This document shows, piece after piece, positions 4,329-18,788 of a stretch of DNA of 64,000 bases (position 1 is its first letter; every line of letters begins with the position of its first letter). The stretch is taken from the NCBI GenBank assembly GCA_010692635.1, contig JAAHGL010000007.1:161528-225527 (forward strand), given 5' to 3'. Position numbers and translations under genes: made by a program. This DNA comes from Symploca sp. SIO2C1 (GTDB lineage Bacteria; Cyanobacteriota; Cyanobacteriia; Cyanobacteriales; Coleofasciculaceae). Under the pieces are notes generated by a model. The model saw nothing but the letters and a program-made list of their open reading frames with translations, searched no databases and was not told the origin of the DNA.

Positions 4329-7300
4329 CTAAGCTGCATATGCGATTTGGCAGCTATCGGAGAGTTCCCCTCTCTTCAATAAGTAAGCAAAGTAGGTTTG
4401 GAGCAAGCTAGTATCAACTGCTGGACAAACGGTGTTAGTTCCCGCTATTCCTGCTAAGGTGTTTTGGTAGTCAAATGCCTGAGATACTAAAGCAGCTGTC
4501 TCTAGATAAGGTCGTTCGTTGCCAGTTACCCAGTCTGTAAACAGAAACAGCAGGGGACTGAGGGCATTATCTGCTTGAGCGCTAGCCACTTTGAGTAGTT
4601 TAGCTTGCCACTGATCATAGTCACTCCACTGAATAAAGTAGCCAAAGTCATGGATTGATTTCACCAGCTCACGGAAGTGTAAGGCGTGAGGACTAACTAG
4701 GTGAAAAGCTTTGCCTAAGGATGTTGGCTGTTGAGATAAATGAACGATCGCGCGGCTAACATAGTCTACAGGAGTTAGACTTAGTTTTAAGTCTAAGTCA
4801 GGGGCGCTACCTAGTTGAATCAAGCCTTTGATTAAGCGGGCGATTAGGTCATCTACTGAAGAAGCACCAGTTTGACTATCACCTGTAATCATACTAGGTC
4901 TGTAGATAGAACCAGGAATACCCCTAGCATGAGCTGCCATCACTAACTGTTCACCTACCCATTTACTCTGAGCGTAGCCATCGGAAAGTCCTTCACACTC
5001 AAGGTTGATATCTTCTGAAATTACTTCCATGCCAGCATATTGGGGAGATTGGAAGACATCAAGGGTAGAGATGAAATGAACGGGTTTGACTTTGATTTGG
5101 CTGGCTAATTTCAGAATTTCCTTCGTTCCCAGCACATTAGCTGTCCGGAGGGCAGTATAGGGATAGATTAAATTAACAAATGCCCCGTTGTGATAAATAG
5201 TGTCAATCTCTGTAGCTAACTGGCGAAACTGCTCCTCTGAAAACCCGAACAGAGGCTGAGTTAAATCGCCGCGAACTGGTACAATCCGATGCTCTAGATT
5301 TTCATCAGAAAGTAAATAGCGCTTTAGATTGCTGCGGAGCTTTTGTTTGCCTATCTCAAGATTGGGACAACGGACTAAGCAATGAATCGTAGCTTCGGTT
5401 TGTTGGAGAAGTTCGTGTAGTAAAAAAGCTCCCAGAAAACCAGTTGCTCCTGTTAAGAAGATCTGTTGAGGCTGAGTCCCAGAGTTAGTATAGGGTACTT
5501 CTGGATAGATAGTTGGTTCGAGAACTGCATCCGCCTGTAACTTCTCAACTATGGTGCTGGCTGGCTGTGAGCTAAATTGGGAATTTTGAACTACTGTAAT
5601 TTCCTGAGCCAGTTCAGCAATTGTGGGAGCTTCAAACAAAGACAGCAATGGTAATTCTACCCGGAAGATTTCTCTTATCTGAGATAGTAGCTGAGCAGTG
5701 AGGAGAGAATGTCCCCCCAATTCAAAGAAGTTGTCATGAATACCCACTCGGTTAATCTCCAGAACCTCGCTCCAGATTTGGACTAACTCTTCTTCAATGG
5801 GAGTCCGGGGAGGCACAAACTGGTCCATTAAAACTAGCTTGGCTTGGTTTGGTGCTGGTAGTGCTTTGCGGTCTACTTTGAGGTTAGGCGTTAATGGGAA
5901 TGAATCTAGTAAGATGAAAGCTGAAGGTATCATGTACTCAGGTAGTGTCTTCTTGAGAAAGGAGCGCAAGTGGCTCAAAGATAATCCTTGGGTTTCGATG
6001 ATGTAATCTATGCTCTGAGAAATTTGAGCTACTCGGGGTTGTGCAGCATCGAATACTAGCCCAGCAGATTCTCCAAAGTGCCAAACGACAGTTCCCCTTA
6101 ACCAAAGCTCGTCTTGAATTCCAGGTAGTTGTAGCTTGAGGCGAAGGCGTTGGCCCTCTTGCCAAAGATCTGTAGTCTTCGTTTCGCTTTGCTCACCATG
6201 TTTAGATGCTGTTAAGCGGATACCACCACGACTGATATTTTGCGTAGTCACCTCTAGGGTTTGACCTGACTTAAATTTTGCTAGGCAAGTGCTGTTAAAA
6301 GGTATCCGAGGCTCTGTACGACGTATATCCTTTACTGCTAATCCCTCGGTTTGCAAGATCTGCTTGATGCCTTGATTCAATAGAGCTTGCTTTATGGGTG
6401 TGGTTTGGAAGAGAACTCCAGCATGTTCCTGCTCTCGCCAAGCGAGGGTTCCTTCTAACTTTAGTTCTTGCTCAAGTCCGGGCAACTGGAGGTGGAGGTG
6501 GAGGTGTTGTCCTTGCTGCCAGACTGCTGGTATATCCGTTAGACAGATGCCAGTTGGGGAAAGATCTACAGTAGTTACCGTAACTGCAGGTCCACCGTCC
6601 CATTCTACTAGGCAACTACTTTGTAGCTGTACTCGTTCTACACTGAGGTCGGTCAATAAATAGGCTACTAGACGCTTTTCTCCAAGATCTTCCTCTACTG
6701 GCACTACCACTGCCTCTTTGATACCAGGGTGTTGGTAGAGAGCAGATTCAATTTCCCCCAGCTCAATGCGAAAGCCACGAATTTTCACCTGATGGTCGAT
6801 GCGGCCTAGGCATTCTATCGTACCGTCTGGTAAGTAACGTGCTAAGTCTCCGGTACGATAGAGACGAGCTCCAGGCTTGTTGCTGAAAGGGTCTGGAATA
6901 AACTTTTTTTCAGTAAGTTCAGGTCGATTGAGGTAACCCCGAGCCAATCCTACTCCACCAATGAGTAACTCCCCTGGCTCTCCTAATGGGACTAACTGAA
7001 GCTGCTCATCTTTCTGGTTTCGTTCTGTATCTACTAGATAGATTTGGGTATTAGCAATCGGTCTGCCAATGGGAACATTACTATTCTGTAGCTCTACTTG
7101 CTGTACTGTTGACCAAACAGTGGTTTCAGTAGGGCCGTACATGTTCCAAACTGAGCTACTTCTAGCAAGAAGTTGATTAGCTAGCTCTCTAGACATAGCT
7201 TCCCCACCACAGAGAATTTTGAGGTTAGGAGAACCTTGCCAAGCTGCGGCTAAGAGCATTCGCCAAGTGGCGGGTGTTGCTTGCATGACGGTTGCACCGG

Positions 7301-8063
7301 ATTGCTCTATGACTTTGATTAACTCGATGGCGTCTGAGGCAACTTCCCGTGTCACCAACTCCACACGAGCTCCGACGAGCATTGGTAAGTAGAGCTCTAA
7401 GCCAGCAATATCAAAGGAGATGGTGGTAACAGCCAGTAAGACATCTTCTGGGATAAGTCCAGGTGCTTGGCTCATGGATGTGAGGAAATTAACCAGTGCT
7501 CGATGGGTAATTTGCACACCTTTGGGCTTACCTGTAGAGCCAGAAGTATAGATGATATAAGCCAAGTTGTCTGGAGTGACTCTACTGTCAGGATTCTGTT
7601 GGCTGTATTGAGCAATTGTTTCCCAATCAGTATCCAGACATACAACTTTAGCTTGATGGTCGGGTAACTTCGCTACCTGTTCACTATCACTCAAAAGCAC
7701 TCTACATTGGCAATCTTCGATCATGAAAGCCAAGCGATCTTGAGGGTAGCTAGGATCTAGAGGCACATAGGCTCCACCGGCTTTGAGAATCCCCAGCAAT
7801 CCAATTACCATGTCTAGCGATCGCTTCAAGGAAATTCCCACTAGTGCATCCGGTCCAACTCCCAATGTCTGCAAATAGCGAGCCATTTGATTTGCTCTAT
7901 TATTAAGTTCTCTGTAAGTAAGGGAGCTGTTCTCAAAACTAACGGCCACGCTGTCGGGAGTGCGTTCTACTTGAAAGTCAACTAACTGATGCATGCACTG
8001 ATTTGGATAATCAGCTTGAGTGTTATTCCAGTTTCCAAGTAGTTTGTGATCGATCAAATTCAT
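4329..8063 (-). CDS. NRPS-like A-(PilZ-PilZ)-PCP-thioester reductase
   Basis: 1244 residues, no condensation domain. The adenylation domain runs from about 25 to 740: A3 YTSGSTGKPKG (172-182), A5 NMYGPTETT, A7 YRTGDLARY, A8 RIDHQVKIRGFRIELGEIE, A9 LPEYMIP (707-713) and A10 NLKVDRKAL. Between A8 and A9 about 240 residues are inserted holding two PilZ-like domains: the first with DxSxxG (500-505) but only one of the usual arginines, the second with RxxxR (582-586) and NxSxxG (609-614). A PCP follows with the phosphopantetheine serine in ELGGHSL (786), then a reductase domain with NAD(P)-binding TGATGFLG (871-878), the Tyr-x3-Lys pair GYAQSKW and a full-length C-terminus. Specificity positions read D-I-L-Q-L-G-M-V-W-K, close to glycine codes. 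The likely chemistry is activation of an amino acid and NAD(P)H release as an aldehyde or alcohol. No tailoring, transport or PPTase gene is adjacent. Confidence 0.92.
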   Translation of the reverse strand: MNLIDHKLLGNWNNTQADYPNQCMHQLVDFQVERTPDSVAVSFENSSLTYRELNNRANQMARYLQTLGVGPDALVGISLKRSLDMVIGLLGILKAGGAYVPLDPSYPQDRLAFMIEDCQCRVLLSDSEQVAKLPDHQAKVVCLDTDWETIAQYSQQNPDSRVTPDNLAYIIYTSGSTGKPKGVQITHRALVNFLTSMSQAPGLIPEDVLLAVTTISFDIAGLELYLPMLVGARVELVTREVASDAIELIKVIEQSGATVMQATPATWRMLLAAAWQGSPNLKILCGGEAMSRELANQLLARSSSVWNMYGPTETTVWSTVQQVELQNSNVPIGRPIANTQIYLVDTERNQKDEQLQLVPLGEPGELLIGGVGLARGYLNRPELTEKKFIPDPFSNKPGARLYRTGDLARYLPDGTIECLGRIDHQVKIRGFRIELGEIESALYQHPGIKEAVVVPVEEDLGEKRLVAYLLTDLSVERVQLQSSCLVEWDGGPAVTVTTVDLSPTGICLTDIPAVWQQGQHLHLHLQLPGLEQELKLEGTLAWREQEHAGVLFQTTPIKQALLNQGIKQILQTEGLAVKDIRRTEPRIPFNSTCLAKFKSGQTLEVTTQNISRGGIRLTASKHGEQSETKTTDLWQEGQRLRLKLQLPGIQDELWLRGTVVWHFGESAGLVFDAAQPRVAQISQSIDYIIETQGLSLSHLRSFLKKTLPEYMIPSAFILLDSFPLTPNLKVDRKALPAPNQAKLVLMDQFVPPRTPIEEELVQIWSEVLEINRVGIHDNFFELGGHSLLTAQLLSQIREIFRVELPLLSLFEAPTIAELAQEITVVQNSQFSSQPASTIVEKLQADAVLEPTIYPEVPYTNSGTQPQQIFLTGATGFLGAFLLHELLQQTEATIHCLVRCPNLEIGKQKLRSNLKRYLLSDENLEHRIVPVRGDLTQPLFGFSEEQFRQLATEIDTIYHNGAFVNLIYPYTALRTANVLGTKEILKLASQIKVKPVHFISTLDVFQSPQYAGMEVISEDINLECEGLSDGYAQSKWVGEQLVMAAHARGIPGSIYRPSMITGDSQTGASSVDDLIARLIKGLIQLGSAPDLDLKLSLTPVDYVSRAIVHLSQQPTSLGKAFHLVSPHALHFRELVKSIHDFGYFIQWSDYDQWQAKLLKVASAQADNALSPLLFLFTDWVTGNERPYLETAALVSQAFDYQNTLAGIAGTNTVCPAVDTSLLQTYFAYLLKRGELSDSCQIAYAA

Positions 8064-11162: not shown

Positions 11163-11285
11163 GGGTGAGCGAAATTAGGGAAGGAATTTCTAGCGAAGTA
11201 TCCTTTCAAATTATTAGTTCTCCTTTGTTTCCTCATCTCCCCATCTCCCTATCTCCCTATCTCCCCACCCTTTTTTCGTTCACCC
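11163..11285. mobile_element. 123-bp MITE with 9-bp target duplication
   Basis: Termini are inverted: GGGTGAGCGAAA at the left and TTTTTTCGTTCACCC at the right. The direct repeat CCGATCACC flanks it exactly (11154-11162 and 11286-11294), the expected target-site duplication. The interior is non-coding, with a CTCCCTAT-type tract near the right end. A second full copy is at 56752-56876 and a right-end-only copy at 41954-42006. The short size and lack of a transposase make it a non-autonomous element; 9-bp duplications are seen in several IS families, so the helper cannot be named. Confidence 0.85.
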
Positions 11286-12895
11286 CCGATCACCTCTAGT
11301 AAATTGAGAATATTGGTTTGGGCATATCCTACTGCTTGTGGGGAGTGCCGTTGTAGCATTGATAGAACCTGATTTAGCTGCTCTTCAAGAGGATTTGCCT
11401 CGGTTAAGGTCAGATATAATTTATCTACAATCCGTGTCAGAATCAGGCGAACTTGAATTTGTTTTACCTCTTTTGTTGTCTGTTCCTTAACCAATGCATG
11501 AGTTCTTAGGAGTCCCAATTTACTGACTGACTGAGTTGCCACTGTTGTCATTATATCTTTACAGACCTGCTCAATCAATTGGTTAATAACATACTTCATC
11601 ACCACCGGTTGTAGGGTAAAAATAGCCTCATTCCCTTCTCGGTTTGATGCTTTTTCCAGTAGCGAGCGTCGCTTCAGAGATTCAAGAGCTGCTACTAATT
11701 TAGATAACGATGATACAGAAAACTGCATATCTGCTTTCAATTGAAGCAATGATATGGGTTGATTTTCCAGAGCAAACCAATAGACAATTCCCATTTCTAA
11801 GGTTGACAATCGTTCAAAATGCTGATTTAACAGGCTCAGAAGAATATCACCAATGACTAAGGTACTTTGCTCTAGTAATTCATAAATATCGCCATTAAAT
11901 ATCTCCTGAATCGTGGTAGCAATTATTTTTAAAGCTAAGGGATTACCTCTATATAGCTGAATCAGTTCTTCAGAACCCCTCTTTAAATTAGAGAAACCTT
12001 TAGTTTCCAAGAGTTTTTTGGCATCTTCGAGTTGTAATCCCTTAAGTTTTAACTCCCTAACCGGTAAAGTGGCTCCTGCCAAAGACGAAATTTCTATCGG
12101 TTTCTCGCGACTGATGAGAAGTAAACAACTTTGATGCCTTTCTTGTCCTACTCGCCTAATTAACTTGCCATAATCTTCATAACCTTCTCGATATTGCCCT
12201 GCTAGTTCTCCGCTGCGCATTACTGTTTCCCAATCATCCAGTATCAGGAAACAGCGATGTACTTGTAAATACTCAATTAGTCGCGAAATTCTACCATCTA
12301 CAGTTGTTGGTACATCTGTCTTCTGCCCATTGGCTAAAAATTTGAGCCAATCTGCTAAGATATCTTGAATCGGTGGGGCGTTGCGTAGAGAACGCCAGAT
12401 TAGGTACTCAAAAGATTGTTGAATTTGCTCTGCAAGCTTAGCTGAGAGTGCTGTTTTACCAATTCCACCCATGCCTAGCAGTGCTACTAAGTGACAAGAC
12501 TCAACCACAATCCATTGCTCTAGCTGAATTAGTTCTGTGGTACGACCATAAAAGGTAGAGATATCAATCGCTTCTCCCCAGTCTTGACAAGTCTTAGTGG
12601 GCGTTAGGCTGCGGCGCTCAACAACCTCTTCCCACTTTAGTCCGAGAACTTGACAGTAGGCTTTGAAGGCTGCTGCACTAATAGGTTGCTTTCCTGCCAA
12701 AAACCGTTTCCAAGTTCCTCCTGAGATACCCTCAGCATAAGAACCATCTAGAAACCAGTTTTTGTTAGGCTCTAAAACCTTACTAGCCTCCACGAGGCAG
12801 GTGTCATCTTCATCAATACTCCAACCCCACCCCTTTTCATTTCTAGCTTGCTTAATTTTGGCTATTCCCAGTCGAGAGGCTTTAAGCGTCGGCAC
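11249..12895 (-). CDS. NB-ARC (STAND) ATPase, C-terminus replaced by MITE sequence
   Basis: 548 residues. The N-terminal ~95 residues form a helical module (LKASRLGIAKIKQA, TWKRFLAGK, VLGLKWEEVVERR) common at the front of cyanobacterial NB-ARC proteins and resembling an HTH. The NB-ARC domain has Walker A GMGGIGKT (141-148), Walker B FLILDDW (216-222), an RxxR-type sensor region LLLISREKP, and the GLPL-equivalent GNPLALK. Helical repeats follow to about residue 535. Such STAND ATPases act as ligand-triggered switches, normally fused to WD40 or TPR sensors; here no sensor repeats are fused, but a kinase-WD40 gene follows. The last residues (ERKKGGEIGR) are encoded by the inserted MITE; the ancestral end reconstructs to KLQQR. 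Confidence 0.88.
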   Translation of the reverse strand: MPTLKASRLGIAKIKQARNEKGWGWSIDEDDTCLVEASKVLEPNKNWFLDGSYAEGISGGTWKRFLAGKQPISAAAFKAYCQVLGLKWEEVVERRSLTPTKTCQDWGEAIDISTFYGRTTELIQLEQWIVVESCHLVALLGMGGIGKTALSAKLAEQIQQSFEYLIWRSLRNAPPIQDILADWLKFLANGQKTDVPTTVDGRISRLIEYLQVHRCFLILDDWETVMRSGELAGQYREGYEDYGKLIRRVGQERHQSCLLLISREKPIEISSLAGATLPVRELKLKGLQLEDAKKLLETKGFSNLKRGSEELIQLYRGNPLALKIIATTIQEIFNGDIYELLEQSTLVIGDILLSLLNQHFERLSTLEMGIVYWFALENQPISLLQLKADMQFSVSSLSKLVAALESLKRRSLLEKASNREGNEAIFTLQPVVMKYVINQLIEQVCKDIMTTVATQSVSKLGLLRTHALVKEQTTKEVKQIQVRLILTRIVDKLYLTLTEANPLEEQLNQVLSMLQRHSPQAVGYAQTNILNLLEVIGGERKKGGEIGR

Positions 12896-13028: not shown

Positions 13029-13274
13029 ATGGCCAGCATTACTATTCGTGATATACCTGATGCTACTAAAGAAGCGCTACGTATTCAGGCTGCACAATCG
13101 GGCTTGTCCCTTGAGGCATATTTGCGCCATGTGCTCAAACAGTTATCATGCAAAGAGACTACAGCAAATATTAATATCTTGGACATAGCGCAACAATGTT
13201 TCGGTACAAAACACGGTATTGACCTTGAATTACCGGAACGTCATTCAAGACGTTCATCTGTTACGTTTGATTGA
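13029..13274 (+). CDS. FitA-like ribbon-helix-helix antitoxin
   Basis: 81 residues from the ATG at 13029, which has AGAAGG just upstream. The N-terminus MASITIRDIPDATKEALR and GLSLEAYLRHVL are the ribbon-helix-helix DNA-binding domain of FitA/StbC-type antitoxins; the C-terminal half (with ELPERHSRRSSVTFD) would wrap the toxin. Its TGA overlaps the toxin ATG (TGATG). An earlier in-frame start at 13011 lies in the operator repeat and is less likely. It should neutralise the PIN toxin and autorepress through the upstream palindrome. Confidence 0.88.
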   Translation: MASITIRDIPDATKEALRIQAAQSGLSLEAYLRHVLKQLSCKETTANINILDIAQQCFGTKHGIDLELPERHSRRSSVTFD

Positions 13275-13699
13275 TGATTATTTTGGATACGAATGTGATC
13301 TCTGAACTGATGCGTGAAGCACCAAATCAAGCAGTAGCTGAGTGGATCGCCTCTCATAAATCTTTTCATCTGGCATTGACGACTATTTCTATTGCTGAAA
13401 TTCAGCGTGGCTTGGCGCGGTTACCCAAAGGTAAGCGACGTACTGAACTTGAAAGCAACTTCTCAAGCTTTATCAAACAGGCATTTAGTGGCCGCATCTA
13501 TACTTTTGATGAAGATGCAGCATATACTTATGGCAACGTATCCATGCAACGAGAAACGATAGGCTTACATGCTGATGCAGTCGATATGATGATTGCGGCG
13601 ATTGCTACATCGCAAAATGCATCTATAGCAACACGCAACGTTAAGGACTTTGAAGAGTGCGGGGTTCATATTATCAATCCATGGGATTATGTATCCTAA
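13274..13699 (+). CDS. FitB/VapC-like PIN-domain toxin
   Basis: 141 residues. The PIN acidic residues are visible: LDTNVISEL (first Asp), the conserved Glu in SIAEIQRG, Asp in HADAVDMMIAAIA, and the closing TRNVKDFE. These form a Mg-dependent ribonuclease site. The FitB-type end VHIINPWDYVS is intact and length is normal, so the toxin looks functional. Start is the ATG at 13274, overlapping the antitoxin stop; a TTG one codon earlier is in frame but not needed. RNA target unknown. Confidence 0.9.
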   Translation: MIILDTNVISELMREAPNQAVAEWIASHKSFHLALTTISIAEIQRGLARLPKGKRRTELESNFSSFIKQAFSGRIYTFDEDAAYTYGNVSMQRETIGLHADAVDMMIAAIATSQNASIATRNVKDFEECGVHIINPWDYVS

Positions 13700-13860: not shown

Positions 13861-14868
13861 ATGAAAGACTTGAATCTTGACCTAGTGACAGACTTGAATC
13901 TTGACCCAGTGACAGGCGTTATCAAAGCGATCGCTCGCATAGCAGCTTCCCCGATTAAAAACCAGCTTGAGCGTGATAAGAGGGTAATTCAAGTGCTCAA
14001 GAAACTGAAGCTCAATCCTGAGCATCCACCAGCAGATTTCACTGGGGTTTATCGCTATGCCCTTGCAGAGTATGGTGTTGACAAACCACAGCCAGTTCTA
14101 GAACTCTTTGAGCAAAAAGCAATAATGCAGGCGTTTCGGCAAGCCTTTGAGCAGAATGACCAATCAATTCTTTTGCAGGAAGGAGAGGATTTTCTCGACT
14201 GGAATATATTAGGTGATCGCATCCGAGAAGTTAAGATTGATATTCAGCGAGAGTTTGCTGATTTTCAAGCAGTCTTTATTAAGGTGGCAAACTCTACGCG
14301 GACACCTGCTGATGTTATTCAAAGCCAGAAAATAGATCACTTAGCAAAGATTTTAGAAGAGATTGAGGCTAGGATACCAGCACTACCACCACTTACCCTT
14401 GACCACCTCTGGGAGTTATTGCTTGACAAAGCGACTAAAACTGACCAAATGAAACCAGAAATTGCCAATAATTTGGGCATGTGGAATCCTGCACCCAAAG
14501 TACCAAAAGGCACACCATTTTATTTCGTGGTTAATCTTGAGACTTCCGGTTATTTGATTCTGCTGGAAAAGAACCCTGAAAGACAAATTTGGTGTTTATC
14601 ACCATCATTTTTAGCACCACCGTCATTTCTGGAAGCAGGACAAGTGAAGTTACCCTTGGCAGATCAAGATACTTTTACCGCCGATAGTGTTGGTAGAGAG
14701 CAGATGGTGGCGATTATTAGTCACGAGCAGCTTAATTTCGATTGGTTGCCGGGGAGTGATGATGAACCTTTGGAAATGCGGAAGGTGCATTTAAATCAAT
14801 TATTAGAATATTGTAAAAAATTCCCAGACAGCAAAATATTATCTTCGGAATATACAGTGATTTTCTAA
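13861..14868 (+). CDS. DUF4384-like protein with conflict-system-type N-terminal module
   Basis: 335 residues, start ATG preceded by a weak GGTAACC. The N-terminal ~160 residues (RDKRVIQVLKKLKLNPEH, FTGVYRYALAEYGVDKP, DFLDWNILGDRIRE, then DIQREFADFQAVFIKVA) are a module I recognise as recurring at the front of diverse cyanobacterial proteins, including NTPases and TPR proteins; a docking role is plausible but unproven. The C-terminal ~120 residues (PKVPKGTPFYFVVNLETSGY, LILLEKN..., ending in EYTVIF) look like a DUF4384 beta domain, often found with proteases and kinases. It precedes the TPR-CHAT gene by 44 bp on the same strand, so the two are probably co-expressed. Confidence 0.6.
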   Translation: MKDLNLDLVTDLNLDPVTGVIKAIARIAASPIKNQLERDKRVIQVLKKLKLNPEHPPADFTGVYRYALAEYGVDKPQPVLELFEQKAIMQAFRQAFEQNDQSILLQEGEDFLDWNILGDRIREVKIDIQREFADFQAVFIKVANSTRTPADVIQSQKIDHLAKILEEIEARIPALPPLTLDHLWELLLDKATKTDQMKPEIANNLGMWNPAPKVPKGTPFYFVVNLETSGYLILLEKNPERQIWCLSPSFLAPPSFLEAGQVKLPLADQDTFTADSVGREQMVAIISHEQLNFDWLPGSDDEPLEMRKVHLNQLLEYCKKFPDSKILSSEYTVIF

Positions 14869-14912: not shown

Positions 14913-17900
14913 ATGACAACGTCTATTTGGTTATTAATACTAATTACTTCTATTTTGTTGATCTCTTTTGTTCTTTACAAGAAAATAGAGCATTTTATGC
15001 GACTACGTAAGCTTGCTCAGCTCAATCAAATAGTTACTCAACTATATCAGCGTGGTGATTCTGAACAAGTCCTAATGATAGCAGAGAAATCCTTGGAATT
15101 AAGTAAAAAACTGCAAAAAAGAGATTACTATGATACAGCCAATAGCTTTAACAATCTCGCGATAATATACTCTGACAAAAGGCGCTATTCAGAAGCAGAA
15201 ATTTTATATTTAGAAGCTTTAGCAATATGGAGACGTTTGTTGGGAGACAATCATATTAATATAGTACAAACTTTAAATAATTTGGCATACATATATGAAA
15301 AGCAAGGTCGCTATAAGGAATCAGAAACTTTGTATGTAGAAGCTTTGGATATTCGGGAAAGCTTGCTAGGTTCTGAGCACCTTGATGTAGCACTGAGTTT
15401 AAATAATTTGGGAGGAATTTACACGTCTCAAGGTCGCTATAAGGAAGCAGAGCCTTTGTATGTAAAAGCTTTGGATATTCGGGAAAGCTTGCTAGGTTCT
15501 GAGCACCTTGATGTAGCACTGAGTTTAAATAATTTGGGAGGAATTTACACGTCTCAAGGTCGCTATAAGGAAGCAGAGCCTTTGTATGTAAAAGCTTTGG
15601 ATATTCGGGAAAGCTTGCTAGGTTCTGAGCATCTTGATGTAGCATCTAGCTTTAATAACCTAGCATTTCTACACTACTCTCAAGGACATTACTTGGAATC
15701 TGAAGCATTGTACCTGAAAGCCTTAGATATGCGAAAGCGATTATTAAAAACTGAGGAGCACCCTGATATAGCAACTAGTCTGAATAATCTAGGAGCACTT
15801 TACGAAGATCAGGGTCGTTACTTAGAAGCAGAACAAAAGTATCTCAAAGCTTTAGCAATGCGACAGCACTTTCTAGGCAAACAACATCCTTATGTAGCAA
15901 CTACTTTAAACAACCTGGCAGAACTTTACAAAGATCAAGGACGCTTCGTAGATGCAGAACGAAAATATCTAGAAGCTTTGGCGATATTACAGCATCTCCT
16001 AGGTAACCAACATCCCTATGTAGCAACTACTTTAAACAACCTGGCAGAACTTTACAAAGATCAAGGACGCTTTGTAGATGCAGAACAAAAGCATCTGGAA
16101 GCTTTATCAATGGAACAACGTTTGTTTGGAGATGAACATCCTAGTGTGGCACGCAGTCTGAAAAATTTGGCAACACTTTATGTCTCTCAAGGGCGTTATT
16201 CAGAAGCAGAACAAAAATATCTAGAAGCTTTATCAATGCGACAACGTTTACTAGGCAATGAACATCCTAGTATAGCAACTAACTTAGACAGTTTGGCAAT
16301 ACTTTATGTTTCTCAAGGGCGTTATTCAGAAGCAGAACAAAAATATCTAGAAGCTTTATCAATGCGACAACGTTTACTAGGCAATGAACATCCTAGTATA
16401 GCAACTAGCTTGAATAATATAGCAACACTTTATGCTTCTCAAAGGCGTTACTCAGAAGCAGAACAAAAGTCTATCGAAGCTTTGTCAATGCGACAACGTT
16501 TACTAGGCAATGAACATCCTAGTATAGCAACTAGCTTGAATAATATAGCAACACTTTATGCTTCTCAAAGGCGTTACTCAGAAGCAGAACAAAAGTCTAT
16601 CGAAGCTTTGTCAATGCAACAAAATTTGCTAGGCAATGAGCATCCTGATGTGGCAGTTAGTTTAAATAATTTAGCAGCAATCTACGCCAATCAAGGACGT
16701 TACTTAGAAGCAGAAGAAAGATATTCAAAAGCTTTATCAATGCGACAAAACTTGCTAGGCAATGAGCATCCTAGTCTAGTAACCAGCTTAAATAATCTAG
16801 CGGCTGTGTTTGCTACTACTGGTTGCTCTACTAAATCTCTATCAAACATGCTCCAAGCAAATAAGATAGATGATCAGATAATAAATGATATCTTTGCCTT
16901 TAGTTCAGAAGGTGATCGCCTTGCCTATCTAAAAACAATCAGAGGTAATTTTCATGCTTTTCTTTCCCTAGTCTGCAAGTGTTTTTCTAACTCTCCTCAA
17001 GCAGTGCAAAAGGCACTAGATGTAATTTTAAAACGTAAAGTCCTTACTGCATCAGCACTTGCTGTCCAAAATGAAGTTCTCTACAGCGATCGCTATCCCC
17101 ATCTTACCGAAGACTTCCACAAACTCCGCGACTTAAGCGAACAAATAATCTACCTCACCTTTTCCATCCCACAAACTACAGATTTCACTACTTACCAGCA
17201 ACAATTAGCACAACTACAAGCCGAACATAACAACTTGCAAAAAAATCTGGCGTCTCAAGTGCCAGAAATCCAATTACAAGAACAACTTCCTAACCGTAGC
17301 GATATCGCATCAAAGTTGCCAGCAGGTTCAATATTGGTCGAGTTTGTTCGCTTTGATGTCTTCAATTTCAAAGCAATCCCAGCCAAAGGAGAAGCACAAT
17401 GGCAACCTGCCCGCTATCTTGCCTTTATCTTACCCGCAGGACAGCCAGAATCAGTAGAGATGATCGATATTGGGGAAGCAGAATATATTGATAGCTTAAT
17501 TCGAGAATTTAGAGGGTTGGTATCTGGAACAGGTACAAATCCAGAAAATCAGCTAGGAATGTTCAACAAACGGAATTCTAAATTAATTTTTAGAGAATAT
17601 CATCCCCAAGCAGGTAGCAAACTAGGGCAAGCGATATTTGACAAACTTCGCCCCTATATCCAAGAACACCAACATTTAATTATTGCCCCAGATGGAGAAT
17701 TGAACCTAGTCCCATTTCAAATTCTCCCTAGCGACGACAGTGGAAAGAAAATGCTGATGGATGAATTTACCATCAGTTATTTAACTGTCGGACGAGACAT
17801 CCTGCGGCAGAAAGTAGAGACAAAACGCACTGCATCCCTAAAAGCTTTAGTATTGGCTTCTCCGAATTTTGACTTGAATGCAGAAACCGTTACCCCTCAG

Positions 17901-18788
17901 GCATCACCAGAGCAACAAAATATGCACTCAGCCAATTTGCGAGAATCTATTGCTAGCAATCCTTTAAAACCTGCTACAGGAACGGGCATACTAGGAGAAC
18001 GAATCGCACAGAAGTTAAATGTAGCACCCTATTTGGAAGATCAAGCACTAGAAAACTACTTCAATCCCAGACAATGTCCCCGCATTTTATTAGTTGCTAC
18101 TCATGGTTTATTTTTACCCAACCAGCCAGAAGATCCTACTCCCACCCCGATTTATCATAGAGAAAGTGATTTACTCCAACGCGATCGCATTTCTCGTCGA
18201 GTAGAAAATCCCATGTTGCGATCGGCACTTGCCTTAGCTGGAGCTAACACCTGGGCAAAAGGCGGTAAACTACCCCCAGAAGCGGGAAAAGGCATCCTCT
18301 TTGCTCAAGATGTAGCTGGACTCGACCTTTGGGCGAATGAAATCACTGTCCTCTCCGCCTGCGAAACTGGAATAGGAGATATCGCCATTGGGGAAGGAGT
18401 ATTTGGTTTAAGGCGAGCTTTTGCTGTTGCAGGAGCAAAAACCCTGATCATGAGCTTATGGTCAGTTAATGGGTGGACAACTACCTTACTAATGGAACGC
18501 TTTTTTGATAATTGTGAAGCAGGATTAGGCCGTACTATGGCATTACAAGAAGCTCAGAATTACCTGCGAAATATAACTGTTAGAGAATTGCAGCAATTTG
18601 AACTAGGGCAAGACATCCTCAAATACGAATTTAATAACGGTAGAAAATTAGATGCAGCAATTTTGGCTCGTCAAGCTGAAGATAAACCTCTGGCACATCC
18701 TAAATACTGGGGTGCGTGGATTTGTCAAGGGGAGACAAAAGCTGTAGAAATATTCAAGCTTGATGAAGTTGAGTGGCAAGATTTTTAG
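14913..18788 (+). CDS. Membrane-anchored TPR-CHAT protease
   Basis: 1291 residues. A single N-terminal membrane segment (LLILITSILLISFVLY) is followed by about 14 kinesin-light-chain-type TPR units of 42 residues (consensus ATSLNNLAxLYxxQGRYxEAExxYxxAL). The C-terminal ~530 residues are a CHAT caspase-like peptidase: His1064 in LLVATHGLF and Cys1150 in VLSACETG form the dyad, with the C-terminal GAWICQG strand intact. CHAT proteases are effectors of cell death or immune responses in bacteria (for example the gRAMP-associated and gasdermin-cleaving kinds); TPRs sense or recruit. Some TPR units are identical at DNA level, implying recent unit duplication. The upstream DUF4384-like protein is a likely partner or substrate. 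Confidence 0.92.
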   Translation: MTTSIWLLILITSILLISFVLYKKIEHFMRLRKLAQLNQIVTQLYQRGDSEQVLMIAEKSLELSKKLQKRDYYDTANSFNNLAIIYSDKRRYSEAEILYLEALAIWRRLLGDNHINIVQTLNNLAYIYEKQGRYKESETLYVEALDIRESLLGSEHLDVALSLNNLGGIYTSQGRYKEAEPLYVKALDIRESLLGSEHLDVALSLNNLGGIYTSQGRYKEAEPLYVKALDIRESLLGSEHLDVASSFNNLAFLHYSQGHYLESEALYLKALDMRKRLLKTEEHPDIATSLNNLGALYEDQGRYLEAEQKYLKALAMRQHFLGKQHPYVATTLNNLAELYKDQGRFVDAERKYLEALAILQHLLGNQHPYVATTLNNLAELYKDQGRFVDAEQKHLEALSMEQRLFGDEHPSVARSLKNLATLYVSQGRYSEAEQKYLEALSMRQRLLGNEHPSIATNLDSLAILYVSQGRYSEAEQKYLEALSMRQRLLGNEHPSIATSLNNIATLYASQRRYSEAEQKSIEALSMRQRLLGNEHPSIATSLNNIATLYASQRRYSEAEQKSIEALSMQQNLLGNEHPDVAVSLNNLAAIYANQGRYLEAEERYSKALSMRQNLLGNEHPSLVTSLNNLAAVFATTGCSTKSLSNMLQANKIDDQIINDIFAFSSEGDRLAYLKTIRGNFHAFLSLVCKCFSNSPQAVQKALDVILKRKVLTASALAVQNEVLYSDRYPHLTEDFHKLRDLSEQIIYLTFSIPQTTDFTTYQQQLAQLQAEHNNLQKNLASQVPEIQLQEQLPNRSDIASKLPAGSILVEFVRFDVFNFKAIPAKGEAQWQPARYLAFILPAGQPESVEMIDIGEAEYIDSLIREFRGLVSGTGTNPENQLGMFNKRNSKLIFREYHPQAGSKLGQAIFDKLRPYIQEHQHLIIAPDGELNLVPFQILPSDDSGKKMLMDEFTISYLTVGRDILRQKVETKRTASLKALVLASPNFDLNAETVTPQASPEQQNMHSANLRESIASNPLKPATGTGILGERIAQKLNVAPYLEDQALENYFNPRQCPRILLVATHGLFLPNQPEDPTPTPIYHRESDLLQRDRISRRVENPMLRSALALAGANTWAKGGKLPPEAGKGILFAQDVAGLDLWANEITVLSACETGIGDIAIGEGVFGLRRAFAVAGAKTLIMSLWSVNGWTTTLLMERFFDNCEAGLGRTMALQEAQNYLRNITVRELQQFELGQDILKYEFNNGRKLDAAILARQAEDKPLAHPKYWGAWICQGETKAVEIFKLDEVEWQDF

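Follow-up and report, generated by a model that had tools for sequence, protein, structure and literature searches.

Domain organization of the synthetase

The window analyzed here, a stretch of 64,000 nucleotides from the cyanobacterium Symploca sp. SIO2C1, encodes on its minus strand (4329..8063) a protein of 1244 residues, which its open reading frame and its matches to Pfam and NCBIfam characterize as a single-module synthetase with adenylation (A), carrier (T) and thioester reductase (R) domains, and in which two consecutive PilZ domains interrupt the A domain. The adenylation core comprises residues 31-378 (6930..7973; AMP-binding, PF00501, E 1e-93) and leads into core motif A8, the hinge to the C-terminal subdomain, at residues 420-439 (6747..6806). 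The first part of this subdomain, hereafter the lid, spans residues 437-471 and ends in KRLVAYLL (6651..6755). Its Pfam family (AMP-binding_C, PF13193) is split over two stretches of the protein, the best of which, residues 437-471, covers positions 1-35 of the 76-position profile with 37.4 bits. Next come PilZ1 (residues ~472-576; 6336..6650) and PilZ2 (residues ~577-692; 5988..6335), and then the remainder of the lid (5838..5987), with motif A9 (LPEYMIP, 707-713) and motif A10 with K729. The chain continues with a carrier domain bearing LGGHSLL (residues 759-821; 5601..5789; PF00550, E 8e-16) and closes with a thioester reductase domain (residues 867-1232; 4368..5465; TIGR01746, 351 bits; PF07993, E 8e-69), in which the NAD_binding_4 match covers residues 870-1106. 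The AA-adenyl-dom and Thioester-redct models of NCBIfam both exceed their cut-offs, and AMP-binding, PP-binding and thioester reductase follow one another in the order of an A-T-R enzyme.

The insert is nested between a8 and a9, with A8, A9 and the A10 lysine K729 intact, as in other interrupted A domains. This is where the preliminary description, made from the letters of the DNA, had placed it, and all the motif coordinates that it named (A8, DLSPTG 500-505, RTEPR 582-586, NISRGG 609-614 and A9) are correct. A catalytic insert can be ruled out, as no Pfam family but PilZ has its best stretch within residues 472-692.

Pfam PilZ (PF07238) matches the protein in two stretches (E 2e-22), and when the whole genome was scanned in six frames the two units scored separately, with 50.8 and 38.9 bits against a curated cut-off of 22.5. 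In an AlphaFold model of residues 466-705 (mean predicted local distance difference test score 82.6) there are two beta barrels with a helix after each, in agreement with the six-stranded barrel and helix of a PilZ domain. Its best Foldseek matches are the two-domain PilZ receptors PlzA, MotI, YcgR, MrkH and VCA0042 (E ~1e-9 to 2e-7), and, as in tandems of the YcgR/MrkH type, a linker with an RxxxR motif lies between the barrels. Two separate PilZ matches above the cut-off, a confident fold and relatives from many sources rule out a chance or artefactual match. The two PilZ units of the preliminary description are thus recovered by profile scores, AlphaFold and Foldseek, profile search and structure prediction being the routes by which it had proposed to locate them. 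Three further PilZ matches in the genome all belong to other proteins, two of which resemble, by eye, glycosyltransferases of the cellulose-synthase type.

A recurrent family with zero to three PilZ domains

A search with residues 440-720 gave 146 proteins, of which 120 were listed; with a one-PilZ region as the query of another search, the closest 7981 candidates were scored and the best 120 listed. The spacing between A8 and A9 grows in steps, from ~57 residues without PilZ to ~160 with one, ~265 with two and ~363 with three, the window protein having 274 residues and two PilZ domains. Pfam agrees with these classes where checked, finding three PilZ domains in P0007 and none in P0061. Judged by spacing, the 230 distinct proteins listed include at least 186 PilZ-interrupted A domains (at least 139 with one PilZ, 41 with two and six with three), all lower bounds that leave fragments without A8 or A9 uncounted and whose class ratio is shaped by the two queries. 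The inserts begin directly past LVAY(L/V) and reach to just short of LRxFLxxxLPxYM(I/V)P. P0085 and P0088, whose inserts we take from their Pfam accessions to be methyltransferases, are interrupted at the same point.

The named sources among the matches listed are all cyanobacterial (among them Symploca, Coleofasciculus, Allocoleopsis, Oscillatoria, Microcoleus, Kamptonema, Laspinema, Rippkaea and Nostoc), and genome scans located the one-PilZ form in the gammaproteobacterium Candidatus Parabeggiatoa as well. Among 386 genomes drawn evenly from the phylum, 11 matched, the window genome included; on inspection ten of these have A-domain inserts and one (G129) a response regulator with PilZ. A census of relatives gave 18 matches in 97, again including the window genome, with 16 A-domain inserts and two free-standing forms. 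The class to which the Parabeggiatoa genome (G444) belongs gave 9 matches in 185, one of them G444 itself. G444 and G476 carry A-domain inserts, G561 has a free-standing form, in five others the insert was not shown by pattern or was left ambiguous, and G581 yielded no locus. Six of the seven matches in G444 were inspected (L062, L071-L075), three of which have the insert by pattern. A scan of genome contigs with two narrow patterns, which is no measure of abundance, found one locus. In another gammaproteobacterial genome (G548), locus L065 contains an open frame of 1321 residues that matches PilZ in tandem, and one frame of the locus resembles a degenerate synthetase.

The architecture is therefore real and recurrent and, as far as our literature search reaches, undescribed. 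No account of a PilZ-interrupted A domain was found in the titles and abstracts of the open-access literature, a coverage that does not extend to the principal survey of such domains; within these bounds the preliminary description's statement that no example had been described is consistent with the record. The inserts named in passages of two articles are methyltransferases, oxidases, ketoreductases and monooxygenases (PMC11355689, PMC8097286), and the word PilZ is absent from the texts PMC11355689, PMC8097286, PMC8949500 and PMC9259500. As PF07238 is already annotated on relatives in public databases, the co-occurrence of the two domains can be found there, and the same open-access literature yielded no published discussion of it.

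Free-standing lid-PilZ-PilZ proteins

A PilZ tandem flanked by lid segments is also encoded on its own. The open frames in G040 and G066, of 355 and 359 residues, read lid-PilZ-PilZ-lid and have no adenylation core; 12 clusters of such proteins occur among the matches listed, and genomic loci include L014/L015, L056 (9388-10452) and the gammaproteobacterial L064. Their flanks align with the lid of the window protein (z 10 to 22); of three such proteins tested with the Pfam lid model, one scores 19.2 bits, below the cut-off, and two are missed. In the PilZ2 of these forms, RxxxR is kept in 10 of 12 and NxSxxG in every one. As they are devoid of a catalytic core, the lid-PilZ module exists separately from catalysis. 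The neighbors of the free-standing gene in G040 (L056) encode a response regulator and a histidine kinase with a Cache domain. In a nonribosomal peptide synthetase (NRPS; L017/L058), a second PilZ-bearing lid without its own adenylation core comes after the first and a truncated carrier-like stretch.

Conservation of the ligand-binding signature

The canonical PilZ signature for cyclic dimeric guanosine monophosphate (c-di-GMP) consists of RxxxR and [DN]xSxxG. PilZ2 of the window protein, which Pfam, the genome scan, AlphaFold and its relatives all delineate, has both, as RTEPR at residues 582-586 (6306..6320), with R581 directly before it, and NISRGG at 609-614 (6222..6239). PilZ1, delineated by profile, AlphaFold and relatives, has a half-site, R477 and DLSPTG at 500-505 (6549..6566), and no first Arg. 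The full signature of PilZ2 and the missing first Arg of PilZ1 are as stated in the preliminary description; R581 and R477 refine it. In the 41 tandem proteins scored (the fragments P0043 and P0045 being excluded), R581, R586, [DN]609 and G614 of PilZ2 are invariant; position 582, the first Arg of RxxxR, is R in 36, H in three, C in one and D in one, and position 611 holds S in 29 proteins and G in the other 12, so that 24 of the 41 have the complete signature. The PilZ2 site of the tandem forms can be written RR-xxx-R plus [DN]x[SG]xxG. PilZ1 never has the first Arg (0/41), and its half-site residues R477, [DN]500, S502 and G505 are each present in 41/41.

The six three-PilZ forms carry the full signature in all 12 of their downstream units, which marks the canonical site as the one that is retained as copies are added; PilZ1 has lost the Arg and the G in five of the six, mutually close relatives. 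The pattern with which the one-PilZ forms were scored demands an Arg at the second place and fitted 127 of 139 units. All 127 have R and [DN]xSxxG and none has the first Arg; the 12 outside the pattern include several that are otherwise changed there and two with Cys in place of the Arg. With the first Arg absent, one-PilZ forms are not expected to be ordinary c-di-GMP receptors, and probably are not canonical ones. The proposition that every PilZ-interrupted A domain is a c-di-GMP receptor can accordingly be ruled out.

Ratios of nonsynonymous to synonymous substitution rates (dN/dS) against four relatives, with dS near or above 1 in three of the four comparisons, are 0.14-0.28 for the PilZ units, 0.12-0.18 for the A core and 0.19-0.33 for the carrier domain, the PilZ values lying inside or under the carrier range.

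Probable duplication, mobility and loss of the insert

PilZ1 and PilZ2 of the window protein are 36% identical (E 1e-21), and the tandem therefore probably arose by duplication. A tree built from 109 PilZ units, whose deep forks are weak because 119 columns had to resolve 109 rows, groups PilZ2 with the units of the free-standing proteins (support 93) and brings the one-PilZ units almost into a single lineage (32 of 33, support 99). A tree of 73 A cores, obtained by a quick search and with no inferred root, has the PilZ labels scattered, the one-PilZ state alone needing at least seven changes over nine rows, and P0046-P0049 bear the tandem on very distant A cores. This tree omits 13 named proteins (two one-PilZ and one PilZ-less among them) as well as N-terminally cut cores, and takes in only 22 of the later comparators; of its labels, the '3' of P0088 reflects the length of a different insert and the 'p' of P0092 merely a longer spacing. 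On the simplest reading of the two trees, the PilZ-bearing lid would have been kept, or moved, during exchange of A cores.

Five orthologs without PilZ (P0061, P0064, P0066, P0067 and P0068) retain stubs of the insert, and all but P0067, in the A-core tree, nest among PilZ-bearing relatives. Stubs and nesting together suggest that the PilZ-less state is probably a loss; as the insert was lost in five orthologs, adenylation is probably independent of it.

Predicted chemistry and signaling context

Positions of the specificity code follow the numbering of gramicidin synthetase. Placed by motifs, the code of the window A domain is DILQLGMVW, with 23 of the A domains tried returning no code. It is one position off DILQLGMIW(K), given in PMC12283262 as the code of four glycine-activating domains, and this single difference makes glycine the probable substrate. 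The predicted product is likely an amino aldehyde or alcohol. Nine GGDEF and four EAL matches in the window genome indicate that c-di-GMP is probably present in the cell.

Discussion

What does a ligand-binding fold do in the mobile part of an adenylation domain? Our preferred answer, to which we assign a probability of about 0.5, is that PilZ2 of this A-T-R enzyme binds c-di-GMP and so gates the swing of the lid. The receptors YcgR, MrkH and MotI bind c-di-GMP via linker arginines and a PilZ barrel. By analogy, c-di-GMP would sit in the PilZ2 barrel of the synthetase and at the arginines of the linker, and its binding would re-orient PilZ1 relative to PilZ2. Because the tandem is tied to the lid at both ends, such a change would reach the lid and alter the ease with which it closes or turns. 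The step gated would be the swing between formation of the acyl-adenylate and loading of the carrier, which c-di-GMP could turn either on or off. In favor of this reading are the two PilZ folds, the conserved PilZ2 site, the full signature of the downstream units in three-PilZ forms, the low dN/dS of the PilZ units, the free-standing forms, the small number of PilZ lineages borne on scattered A cores, the GGDEF and EAL matches of the genome and the presence of all three enzymatic domains with their motifs.

Several results weigh against this proposal. A canonical PilZ2 residue is missing in 17 of the 41 tandem forms (G at 611 in 12, an altered R582 in five). One PilZ is the commonest form in both lists (139 of 186 among the matches listed), and its scored units have the half-site without the first Arg. 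The relative orientation of PilZ1 and PilZ2 is uncertain in the model (AlphaFold predicted template modelling score 0.51), and none of the nine GGDEF and four EAL matches of the genome falls inside the 64-kb window. The five orthologs without the insert count here too, as gating would be dispensable in some lineages; they also offer natural ungated controls.

One alternative is that PilZ is a structural or docking insert, a portable barrel serving partner binding or dimerization within the lid with no ligand gating. Such a role would suit the prevalence of one-PilZ forms devoid of the first Arg (0/127 scored), the lack of that Arg in PilZ1 (0/41), the altered R582 in five of 41 proteins and the tolerated losses of the insert, and it has a parallel in the PilZ-like structure XC1028, titled in the VIA listing as a case of trivial c-di-GMP binding. 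A scaffold would need none of R581, R586, [DN]609 and G614, however, yet PilZ2 holds all four fixed in 41 of 41, and the six three-PilZ forms keep the full site in 12 of 12 downstream units. We therefore consider a docking role less likely than gating, though the most serious competitor. Less probable still is a feedback control in which the tandem senses another ligand, be it a nucleotide, a cyclic dinucleotide other than c-di-GMP, or the substrate or product of the enzyme itself. It would be odd for the half-site R and [DN]xSxxG to be kept in 41/41 PilZ1 and 127/127 scored one-PilZ units if nothing bound there, but PilZ2 conforms to the c-di-GMP consensus, the closest matches to its two-domain fold are receptors for c-di-GMP, and c-di-GMP enzyme domains are encoded in the genome. 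A passenger drifting in a permissive loop, as the shared insertion point of P0085 and P0088 and the deletion stubs of the orthologs might suggest, is very improbable in view of the PilZ dN/dS of 0.14-0.28, the invariant site residues and the occurrence of the module in several domain contexts and in free-standing proteins.

We thus regard c-di-GMP gating as the likeliest function of the tandem forms, the window protein included, and the tandem forms as likely c-di-GMP-responsive lids. A wider scenario, which we put forward tentatively and at somewhat less than even odds, is that of a portable second-messenger-gated lid: c-di-GMP would directly switch the first nonribosomal step, the module having spread over unrelated cyanobacterial and gammaproteobacterial cores and having been freed as a regulator that maybe acts in trans.

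Like TioS, KtzH and McyA (PMC11355689), the synthetase has an A domain interrupted by a foreign domain between a8 and a9; unlike those catalytic inserts, this one is PilZ, a fold that binds ligands and for which no catalytic role is known. It shares with YcgR, MrkH, MotI and VCA0042 a pair of barrels, of which the second is a canonical PilZ, and an RxxxR in the linker just upstream. Unlike in receptors of the YcgR type, both barrels are PilZ by Pfam and are housed in the mobile subdomain of an enzyme. A fusion of PilZ to biosynthetic machinery is also seen in the cellulose synthase BcsA and in Alg44, whose PilZ folds match; these are membrane polysaccharide systems, whereas here PilZ interrupts an amino-acid-activating enzyme. 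The c-di-GMP genes of Microcystis, according to PMC7063779, have PilZ alone or on cellulose synthase. The order of adenylation, carrier and thioester reductase domains is that of aminoadipate reductase and carboxylic acid reductase, of which the fungal ATRR is a further relative in organization. TIGR03443 and NF041592 of NCBIfam match the window protein under their equivalog cut-offs, and unlike these reductases it has a glycine-type code and a PilZ insert.

What is known of the control of NRPSs mainly concerns transcription. If our proposal is true, the tandem forms would likely provide the first c-di-GMP control known for this enzyme class, a direct and fast control of natural-product synthesis by the signal that governs the sessile lifestyle, and an allosteric part for adenylation-domain engineering. 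Relatives with zero, one, two or three PilZ domains supply natural controls.

Neighboring genes

Of the six relative loci compared, several of them on short contigs, four have an amino-acid permease or a homolog close to the A-T-R gene (L050:12232-13695, L052:4810-6321, L054:12301-13764 and L055:342-1817; also L061), its identity having been checked by Pfam in two of the four. We do not claim a conserved permease/A-T-R cluster, since the homolog in the window genome, whose match spans two stop codons, is on a separate contig.

Elsewhere in the window, an NB-ARC ATPase (11249-12895), a protein with an NACHT-associated helical domain (NNH5; 13861-14868) and a TPR-CHAT protein (14913-18788) lie close to one another, in an arrangement that resembles a defence-type or programmed-response locus. 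Between the first two, on the plus strand (13271-13699), a short open reading frame resembles, by its sequence alone, a PIN-domain (VapC-like) protein.

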